Assembly: GCA_009837395.1 (NCBI GenBank) | Contig: VXTP01000006.1 | Location: forward strand, 248,001-312,000 | Source: Gemmatimonadota bacterium | GTDB lineage: Bacteria > JAAXHH01 | Direction: 5' to 3' | Length of the DNA: 64,000 nucleotides | Shown here: one piece after another, positions 33,366 to 36,523 of the stretch | How positions within the stretch are numbered: position 1 is the stretch's first letter | Layout: every line of letters starts with the position of its first letter | Program-made: the position numbers and the translations under genes | The notes under the pieces: generated by a model | What the model saw: the letters and a program-made list of their open reading frames with translations, nothing else | Told to the model about the DNA's origin: nothing | Database searches by the model: none

Positions 33366-34172
33366 CTAACTCGTACCCTCGCCGAACACCTGCGTGCGCC
33401 ACATGACCCGGCGTTGCCGGTCGTCGAAGGGCGTGCGGCGGTGCATGGTGCAGCGATTGTCCCACATGATCAGGTCGCCCACCTGCCAGCGGTGTTTCCA
33501 TACGAATCGCGTGTCGGTAGCATGGGTGATCAGCTCGTCCAGCAGGGCCTGGCCGCCTTCCCGTTCCATGTCCGCGATGTGATGCGTCAGGTGGGGACTG
33601 ACGTAGATCAACTTGCGTCCCGTTTCCGGATGGATGCGGACGACCGGATGCATCGTCGGTTCCGGGGTATTCAACGTATCGATGGGATGCCGGTGGACCG
33701 CGTTCAGGCCGTCGATGCGGGCCTTCATGTCGGGGTGCAGCGCTTCGTAGGACGCATAACCGTTGGCCCACATCGTCTCGCCCCCCTCGTCCGGTATTTC
33801 CAGCGCATACAGCAATGAAATCGTGCCCGGTTCGGGAAGGTAGGACAGGTCTGAATGGAAGGGGATTTCCTCGCTGCCGAGGGCCCCGATGGGCTTGCCG
33901 TCCTCGGTCACGTTCGAGATAACGAAGATTTCCTCGATGGGGCGGTCCGGTTGCGGCCGCACGTGCGGTACCGGTCTTCCGAAATACCGGGTGAAGCGGA
34001 CCAGGTCCTCCTGGCTGATCTCCTGGTTGCGAAAGAACAGCACGCAGTGATCGAGAAAGGTGCCGCGCAACACACGTACGGTCTCCCCGTCCAGTTTACT
34101 GCGCAGATCCAGGCCACGCACTTCAGCGCCGAGTGCGCCACCGGTCGGTATGACTTCAAACGAATCCATCAT
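33366..34172 (-). CDS. TauD/TfdA family dioxygenase
   Basis: A 268-residue Fe(II)/2-oxoglutarate dioxygenase. The start MDSFEVIPTGGALGAEVRGLD is typical of the TauD/TfdA family. The iron motif is FHSDLSYL (His-x-Asp), and the distal His lies in MHRRTPF, followed by the 2-oxoglutarate-binding Arg in RRVMWRTQV. Members hydroxylate taurine, phenoxyacetates, carnitine precursors and other acids; the substrate is unknown. It precedes the selenoprotein candidate by position but is downstream of it in transcription, with a 62-nt gap. Confidence 0.9.
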   Translation of the reverse strand: MMDSFEVIPTGGALGAEVRGLDLRSKLDGETVRVLRGTFLDHCVLFFRNQEISQEDLVRFTRYFGRPVPHVRPQPDRPIEEIFVISNVTEDGKPIGALGSEEIPFHSDLSYLPEPGTISLLYALEIPDEGGETMWANGYASYEALHPDMKARIDGLNAVHRHPIDTLNTPEPTMHPVVRIHPETGRKLIYVSPHLTHHIADMEREGGQALLDELITHATDTRFVWKHRWQVGDLIMWDNRCTMHRRTPFDDRQRRVMWRTQVFGEGTS

Positions 34173-34234: not shown

Positions 34235-34798
34235 CTAGACATTCGTCGCGTCCGGATCGTCCCAGAACGCTTCCAGTTCCACACCCAGGCCGTCCACAGT
34301 TCGGTTGCACCAGGCGAAGAAACCCGTGATCTGGTTGATCTCCAGGATCGCCTTGTCGCCGAACCCGACCTCCCTCAACGCAACGATATCCGACTCCGAC
34401 GTCGAAGCGGGCGCCAGGGTCAGCTTTCGGACGTAGTCCAGCATGGTGCGGTCGGCGTCGTCCAGGTCCGCCTCGCGGTAGTCCTTCTTGATCGCATCCA
34501 CCAGTTCCTGGTCGTTGATCTCTCTGAGGAGCCCCTCCCCATGGTGGCGGATTCAGTACTCGCACTCGTTCAGGGCCGAGACGGTCGTCGCGATCATCTC
34601 CCGCTGTCCCAGCGTGAGGTCGCAGTCTCCGTGCATGAGGCCCTTGTAGAAGACCATCACCGCACGCATCGCCTGCACGTTCAGGCTGTGGACCTTGATG
34701 ATGTTGTCCACGCCGCCCCACGAGCGCATCGAGCCGTCGTAAATCCTTTTCAGCGGACCTTCCGCTTCCGATTCGTCAATGGTGCGTATCCAAGCCAT
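34235..34798 (-). CDS. AhpD-like peroxidase-related selenoprotein candidate (CxxU)
   Basis: Read through one TGA, this is a 187-residue member of the peroxidase-related branch of the carboxymuconolactone decarboxylase/AhpD family. The N-terminal part (MAWIRTIDESEAEGPLKRIY, MHGDCDLTLGQREMIATTVS) runs to NECEY. The TGA at complement 34553-34555 (codon 82) is followed in frame by IRHHGEGLL, LDDADRTMLDYVRKLTLAP and GLGVELEAFW, ending at 34235. In the family this site is the second Cys of Cys-x-x-Cys, with His residues just after. Here it reads Cys79-x-x-TGA82, as expected for selenocysteine. The frame is clean for 105 sense codons after TGA, and a SECIS-like hairpin follows. It would reduce hydroperoxides or act as a thiol/selenol redox enzyme. 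A single nonsense mutation is the alternative. Confidence 0.8.
34525..34541 (-). promoter_or_regulatory. Candidate bacterial SECIS stem-loop
   Basis: Immediately downstream of the TGA codon, the mRNA can form a 7-bp stem, UGGGGAG paired with CUCCUCA (one G-U pair), closed by a GGG loop at 34532-34534. There are 18 nt between the UGA and the loop, within the roughly 16-37 nt spacing used for bacterial SECIS prediction, and G occupies the first loop positions. The element lies inside the coding frame, as bacterial SECIS elements do. Folding was done by eye. Confidence 0.6.
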
Positions 34799-34818: not shown

Positions 34819-35667
34819 TTACAATCCGAAATGTCGCCGCATGCGGGTCACGGCGGCTTTCTCTTCCTTGCTCAATGATTCCAGTTCGTACTCCTCTTCG
34901 GTGATTTGATCCCGGTATTCCTCCAGGGGCAACCCGCTCTTGCCGGTTTCGTTGAAGTAGGCGCTCAGCTGGTAGCGCTGGAAGATGTTCATCCTTGGAT
35001 AGTCCCGGGTCCAGACGGCGGCGTCGTGCAGAAGGTGGGTCGAGAACACGAGGACATCACCGGCGTCCATGGGCACGGTGATGGAGACGGGCGGGTCGTG
35101 GCCGACCTTCAGCCCATCGGGCGGTGCGAAGGCCGACTTGTGGCTGCCGGGCACCAGGCTGAATCCCGTCCCCTCGGGCACGTCGGCCAGCGCGACCCAG
35201 GTGGCCAGGTGGCTGCAGTAGATCTCGCCGCTTGCCGCCTGGTAATCGTTGTGCGGATTGCGGAATCCCGGCGGGAACTTGAACCCGCTGTCGTCCCGGT
35301 GGTAGCCCTGGTGGTCCTCGTCGCCCGGCGTCGCCGGGTCCATTTTCGTGAAGTTACAGTGAAACAGTCGCGGCGCGCCCATGGTGAGCCCCGCGACGAC
35401 GCGGATGATCTCCGGATCGGCATTCAGTTCCTGGAACAACCGGTGGCCGTACTGGATGTGGTCCAGGTGCGTCTTGTACGGTTCCTGACGGTGCCTGAAT
35501 ACCGGCGCGGGGATCTCGGGCTCGTCCACGGAGAGCCAGTAACCTACGACCTCCAGGATGCGCGCCAGGCGGTCCGGCGCGATCACGCCGCGCAGGTGCA
35601 GGTAGCCGTGCAGGTCGAAATGCCACTTCTCTTCTTCAGTCAACAGATGGGCATATTTCGACGGCAT
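34819..35667 (-). CDS. Phytanoyl-CoA dioxygenase (PhyH) family protein
   Basis: A 282-residue putative Fe(II)/2-oxoglutarate oxygenase. It starts MPSKYAHLLTEEEKWHFDLH. The iron motif is GYHRDDSGF (His-x-Asp), and the distal His is probably LLHDAAVWT, followed by an Arg in YPRMNIFQRY. The PGSHKSAF block is typical of the family. It is followed after 20 nt by the selenoprotein candidate and then by a TauD-type dioxygenase, giving a three-gene minus-strand oxygenase/redox run. It is not closely similar to the paralogue at 10359, so the substrate probably differs. Confidence 0.88.
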   Translation of the reverse strand: MPSKYAHLLTEEEKWHFDLHGYLHLRGVIAPDRLARILEVVGYWLSVDEPEIPAPVFRHRQEPYKTHLDHIQYGHRLFQELNADPEIIRVVAGLTMGAPRLFHCNFTKMDPATPGDEDHQGYHRDDSGFKFPPGFRNPHNDYQAASGEIYCSHLATWVALADVPEGTGFSLVPGSHKSAFAPPDGLKVGHDPPVSITVPMDAGDVLVFSTHLLHDAAVWTRDYPRMNIFQRYQLSAYFNETGKSGLPLEEYRDQITEEEYELESLSKEEKAAVTRMRRHFGL

Positions 35668-35752: not shown

Positions 35753-36523
35753 CTATCGCCCCAGCCAACCTCCGTCGACGGCCAGTACCGCACCGTGGAC
35801 GTAGTTGGAAGCGTCCGAACTGAGGTAGACGACGGCGCCGCCCAGGTCGCTCGGCCCACCCCACCGGCCGGCGGGGATACGTTCGGATATGGACCTGGAA
35901 CGCTCCTTGTCGTTCTGCAGGGCCGACGTGAGGTCGGTGGCGATATAGCCCGGTGCGATCGCGTTGACGTTGACGCCCTTGGAGGCCCATTCGTTGGAAA
36001 GGGCCATGACCAGTTGTGCGACGGCCCCCTTGGACGCCGCGTAACTGGGCACGGTGATGCCGCCCTGGAAGGACAGTACGGACGCGGTGAACACGATCTT
36101 CCCACGGCCCCGGGCGACCATGTCCCGTCCGATCTCCCGGCTCAGGATGAACGGCGCGTTGAGGTTCACGTTCATGACCGTGTCCCAGTATTCGTCGGAA
36201 TGTTCGGCGGCGGGCGCCCGCAATGTAAGCCCGGCGTTGTTGACGAGGATATCGATGACCGGGAAATCGTTCTTGACCTGGTGAATGAAATCATTCAGCG
36301 CGTCCCGGTCGTTCAGGTCGACGCTGTAACCGGTAAACCGGCGGCCCATGGCCGTGACGGCCCCTTCAATTTCGCTGCCGGACGACTCCATCGACGCGCT
36401 GACGCCCACGATATCCGCGCCTGCTTCGGCGAGCGCTTCGGCCAGTCCCCTGCCGATTCCCCGGCGGCAGCCGGTTACGAGGGCGGTTTTGCCGTCCAGT
36501 TTGAATGCGTCCAGTATGGACAT
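35753..36523 (-). CDS. SDR-family dehydrogenase, 2-deoxy-D-gluconate 3-dehydrogenase (KduD)-like
   Basis: A 256-residue short-chain dehydrogenase. The cofactor motif is TGCRRGIGRGLAEA, LVNNAG follows, the catalytic Ser is in TASVLSFQGGI, and Tyr-x-x-x-Lys is YAASK. The segment LSFQGGITVPSYAASKGAV is nearly the KduD signature, so conversion of keto-deoxy sugar acids is likely. The C terminus VHGAVLAVDGGWLGR is typical. It is on the minus strand; the GH32 gene lies upstream with a 242-nt spacer. The PhyH gene follows after 85 nt. Confidence 0.88.
   Translation of the reverse strand: MSILDAFKLDGKTALVTGCRRGIGRGLAEALAEAGADIVGVSASMESSGSEIEGAVTAMGRRFTGYSVDLNDRDALNDFIHQVKNDFPVIDILVNNAGLTLRAPAAEHSDEYWDTVMNVNLNAPFILSREIGRDMVARGRGKIVFTASVLSFQGGITVPSYAASKGAVAQLVMALSNEWASKGVNVNAIAPGYIATDLTSALQNDKERSRSISERIPAGRWGGPSDLGGAVVYLSSDASNYVHGAVLAVDGGWLGR

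Follow-up and report, generated by a model that had tools for sequence, protein, structure and literature searches.

The gene at positions 34235-34798 (minus strand) of the window, the 64-kb stretch of DNA analysed here, very probably encodes an AhpD-like selenoprotein of the TIGR01926 type, in which selenocysteine (Sec) would be inserted at residue 82 under the direction of SelB and a hairpin, with Cys79 and Sec82 probably acting as the redox pair in the reduction of a peroxide or a partner protein. Translated with TGA as U, the gene yields a product of 187 residues and ends at a TAG stop codon. As judged from sequence comparison, the evidence that UGA-82 is read as selenocysteine is strong. 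An AhpD-like selenoprotein had been put forward in the initial annotation, and this reading is supported as a whole, with the selenocysteine machinery present and the TGA kept in relatives. Under ordinary annotation, the gene would end at codon 81 or begin past the TGA, and the redox motif would therefore be lost.

The interrupted frame and its hairpin

The frame runs from 34798 to 34235 on the minus strand (MAWIRTIDE...ALNECEY-TGA-IRHHGEG...DATNV-TAG) and contains one in-frame TGA, at codon 82 (34555-34553), followed by 105 sense codons. In line with what was first proposed, this TGA stands at the second redox position of a CxxC-type motif, here CEYU, the first Cys of which (Cys79; codon at 34562-34564, minus strand) is invariant in an 18-row alignment. 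The ATG is located 20 nt past the stop codon of the upstream PhyH gene and is preceded by CAGGAGA, a ribosome-binding-like element, while the third-position GC is 0.85 both 5' and 3' of the TGA. When the window was scanned crudely for further read-through frames, the filter proved too permissive and returned 125 candidates; on visual inspection, no known redox selenoprotein stood out among them apart from the present gene.

A candidate bacterial SECIS hairpin (34525-34541, minus strand; TGGGGAG-GGG-CTCCTCA) starts 11 nt past UGA-82. Its stem comprises 7 bp, including one G-U pair, the apical GGG loop (34534-34532) is spaced 18 nt from the UGA, and the minimum free energy (MFE) is -7.6 kcal/mol alone and -8.5 kcal/mol with flanks. 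Loop, stem, spacing and energy all fall within the published bSECIS criteria, which call for a loop of 3-9 nt with a G in its first two positions, a stem of 4-16 bp, a spacing of 16-37 nt and an MFE <= -7.5 (PMC13188914). No second 7-bp G-loop hairpin occurs in the gene, and the chance expectation for this position, at the window's own rate, is about 0.03.

The hairpin is convincing because of comparative evidence and not because of its folding energy. Stems of other sequence with the pairing retained were observed in L066 (ACGGAGA-GGA-TCTCCGT), in L039, a second copy in the same genome (ACGCAGA-GTT-TCTGCGT), and in L030 (CCGGCGC-GGTCT-GCGCCGG); judging by these substitutions, the stem is maintained through compensatory changes across four subfamilies. 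MAFFT placed the hairpins of different subfamilies one base out of structural register, and the stem pairs were therefore tabulated directly. Moreover, the hairpin falls inside codons 81-91, which show less synonymous change than any other run of 11 codons in the gene (pS 0.154 vs. 0.36-0.41 for the gene's two parts). The earlier description of a SECIS-like hairpin with a 7-bp stem and a GGG loop thus stands, on both the bSECIS criteria and the compensatory changes. A G-loop hairpin of this kind was absent from the Cys homologues tested, and two TGA-bearing homologues, L033 and L027, lack the same hairpin and display a different or weaker structure. The SECIS of the homologues with a CHYU motif (L031 and L033, the latter being the one folded) may take another form. 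The folding energy of the region did not differ significantly from that of shuffled sequences and single-sequence energy controls were at best moderately significant, so folding energy alone was not counted as evidence. An Rfam scan of the 64-kb window returned nothing above gathering scores.

Selenocysteine machinery and conservation of the TGA

The window lies in contig G000:C36 of a 3.8 Mb assembly that is 95.6% complete and carries all four sel genes, as is typical of a genome encoding bacterial selenoproteins: selA (497 bits), selB (346.7 bits; cut-off 242), selD (255 bits) and, directly 3' of selB, the tRNA-Sec gene selC, with anticodon TCA and detected by both RF01852 (70.6 bits) and ARAGORN. 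The absence of selB or selC, named in the initial annotation as evidence that would overturn its proposal, is hence excluded. A 765-aa frame (L047:1399-3696, minus strand) carries SelD as its C-terminal part and has a dehydrogenase-like N-terminal half; Ndh-SelD fusions are a known type (PMC2398784), to which this frame would, by inference, belong. The genome further encodes a full-length SelA-like protein below threshold (L041, G000:C12:59643-61043; 154.9 bits vs. a cut-off of 267.9) and, approximately 1.2 kb from it on the same strand, a ThiL/SelD-like AIRS protein (L048, G000:C12:57711-58469). Most relatives also possess sub-threshold SelA-like copies.

Sixteen genomes of the phylum were compared, namely the present one and 15 relatives. 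A tRNA-Sec match of at least 68 bits was obtained in 13 of the 16 and selA above cut-off in 15. Part of the machinery was not found in G006, G013 and G014, although TGA-bearing AhpD-like genes occur there. In G013, selB stops 18 bases short of the contig end, and selC would be expected to lie just beyond it; missing sequence is therefore the likely reason for such gaps, which are probably due to fragmented assemblies.

In each of the 15 relatives, one or more AhpD-like frames carry a single TGA. Their full-length AhpD-like homologues carry the TGA without exception, the only matches devoid of it being two weak pieces, both in G011. The direct orthologue is present in 13 genomes, the present one included, with at least 72% identity and the TGA in each; a 50% homologue occurs in G013, and in G006 and G015 only the second paralogue type is present. 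The phylum as sampled here shows selenocysteine, the predicted reading of this TGA, to be the usual state of its AhpD-like enzyme. In distant homologues outside the phylum, the same column holds either TGA (L027, L030, L031 and L033) or TGC (L028, L029, L032, L034, L035 and L036), which is the alternation of Sec and Cys that the initial annotation had proposed to look for; L031 and L033, both from Planctomycetota, are the homologues with a CHYU motif. The dN/dS of the 13 orthologues is 0.144 over codons 1-81 and 0.154 over codons 83-187. The part beyond the TGA is therefore selected as protein in the same manner as the part ahead of it, and the clean downstream frame noted at the outset is a conserved one. 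A UGA that falls in frame at the column of a conserved Cys, with coding kept beyond it, is what a bacterial selenoprotein gene is expected to display.

Translation table 11 ends the frame at the TGA, and the codon might accordingly be taken for a true stop, or for the nonsense mutation of a pseudogene, leaving an 81-residue fragment. Such a fragment would lack both the second residue of the redox pair and the C-terminal helices, the same TGA recurs in 13 orthologues whose nucleotide identity falls as low as 70%, and the equality of dN/dS on its two sides speaks decisively against this reading, which is exceedingly improbable. A single metagenome assembly alone could contain a sequencing or assembly error by which TGC or TGT was misread as TGA, and either codon at 34553-34555 would count against selenocysteine. 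The probability of such an error is practically nil: it is refuted by the same TGA in independently assembled genomes, the genes of which differ by 7-30% of bases. Readthrough does occur in some genes, and decoding of the TGA by near-cognate readthrough or as Trp may be envisaged. This is nevertheless very unlikely, given that the aligned residue is Cys and not Trp, that sel genes are in the genome and that the hairpin conforms to the model of bacterial SECIS elements.

Active site, fold and probable function

The product scored 135.9 bits against TIGR01926 (peroxidase-related), passing the curated cut-off of 81.8, and 38.8 bits against CMD PF02627 (cut-off 23), and Sec is the C-terminal redox residue (CEYU), in accordance with an AhpD-like CxxU protein. 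It falls far under the cut-offs of NF041238 (AhpD_rel_CFYUT; 42 bits vs. 175) and NF053654 (GroundWater_YciW; 34.6 bits vs. 310), two related AhpD-type families that include selenoproteins. Glu67, Cys79, Tyr81, residue 82 and His86 are invariant in the 18-sequence alignment (in which Sec is printed as C), and the proton-relay residues of a catalytic AhpD, i.e., Glu, the two redox residues, His/Tyr and His, are all in place. They match the five-residue proton relays reported for Mycobacterium tuberculosis AhpD (Glu118, Cys130, His132, Cys133 and His137) and Pseudomonas aeruginosa PA0269 (Glu36, Cys48, Tyr50, Cys51 and His55) (PMC3141380), and Sec82 is therefore assigned to the position of Cys133/Cys51. 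Both proteins differ from the present one in having Cys at that position and in their low overall sequence identity.

The predicted structure (pLDDT 93.6) matches best, among solved structures, that of Deinococcus radiodurans AhpD (6k40; TM 0.90, rmsd 1.9). The match covers the whole length and brings the CxxC of 6k40 to the same place, with Cys where Sec stands here and approximately 30% identity. D. radiodurans without its AhpD-like protein is sensitive to H2O2 and is rescued much less by variants in which the two Cys are mutated (PMC8945050); 6k40 is presumably this very protein.

A Sec-dependent AhpD-like peroxidase or disulfide-relay protein is the best-supported assignment that the analysis offers. 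SelB loaded with Sec-tRNA would bind the hairpin and direct the insertion of Sec at codon 82, giving the redox motif Cys79-Glu-Tyr-Sec82. In the folded protein, Sec82 would replace the C-terminal Cys of AhpD in a relay with Glu67, Tyr81 and His86. To judge from its homologues in M. tuberculosis (AhpD), P. aeruginosa (PA0269) and D. radiodurans (AhpD), the substrate that the enzyme reduces would most likely be a peroxide or a partner protein, and regeneration would proceed via a Cys79-Sec82 selenenylsulfide.

The flanking genes, all on the minus strand, comprise a PhyH-family dioxygenase upstream (34819-35667; PF05721, 43.2 bits), preceded by a short-chain dehydrogenase (SDR) in the same direction (35753-36523; PF13561, 191.7 bits), and a TauD-family dioxygenase downstream (33366-34172; PF02668, 229.7 bits). 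The order SDR-PhyH-AhpD(U)-TauD is retained in L018-L022 and L025, as well as in the portion covered by L026; PhyH adjoins the AhpD-like gene in all seven of these loci and TauD in L018-L022 and L025. The L023 orthologue has unrelated neighbours without the PhyH/TauD order, and in L024 the only resemblance is a PhyH gene upstream, which is a different one. The two oxygenase flanks described in the initial annotation are thus present, but the role in peroxide handling that it derived from them is weakly founded, the order being conserved only within the genus; it is the protein family, not the neighbours, that speaks for a peroxide role.

It is possible, albeit the less probable option, that an AhpD-fold selenoprotein performs a job other than peroxide reduction here, such as partner-protein reduction or reductive dehalogenation of the Bmp8 kind, a question that bears on function and leaves Sec insertion untouched. 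AhpD-fold proteins have several activities, the neighbouring genes encode oxygenases and a short-chain dehydrogenase, with neither ahpC nor a reductase among them, and the fold is also matched by Bmp8 (6ohi and 6ohj; TM 0.74-0.76), an AhpD-fold debrominase carrying out reductive dehalogenation. The closest solved structures, however, belong to the peroxidase-related branch (TM 0.83-0.90). A broader proposal, that Sec became fixed in the AhpD-like subfamily of this phylum and that its function is not peroxide detoxification (but, e.g., Bmp8-like dehalogenation) and is linked to SDR, PhyH and TauD in one genus, would have to be regarded as a long shot.

Relation to known selenoproteins

Reports of AhpD-like CxxU selenoproteins date from 2005 for the Sargasso Sea and from 2008 for the GOS data, and a 2026 inventory places them under TIGR01926. 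With this family (TIGR01926 / COG2128) the present gene shares the TIGR01926 pass, Sec as the second redox residue and a bacterial SECIS directly downstream, and it is therefore to be considered an added member of a known selenoprotein family. What sets it apart is its probable origin in Latescibacterota. Among its closest named relatives (87-94% protein identity), most records bear the label Candidatus Latescibacterota and some Gemmatimonadetes or Gemmatimonadota, and the host phylum is, going by these labels, probably Latescibacterota. No description of an AhpD-like CxxU selenoprotein in Latescibacterota was found in the literature search. For a lineage known from metagenome assemblies, the selenium use of which is hardly described in the literature found, the gene provides a selenoprotein that is well supported and has a clear SECIS. 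The same genome harbours a second TIGR01926 AhpD-like selenoprotein, L039 (G000:C19:18297-18746, minus strand), with a CVYU motif and a perfect 7-bp hairpin with a GTT loop, and this gene is conserved throughout the genus.
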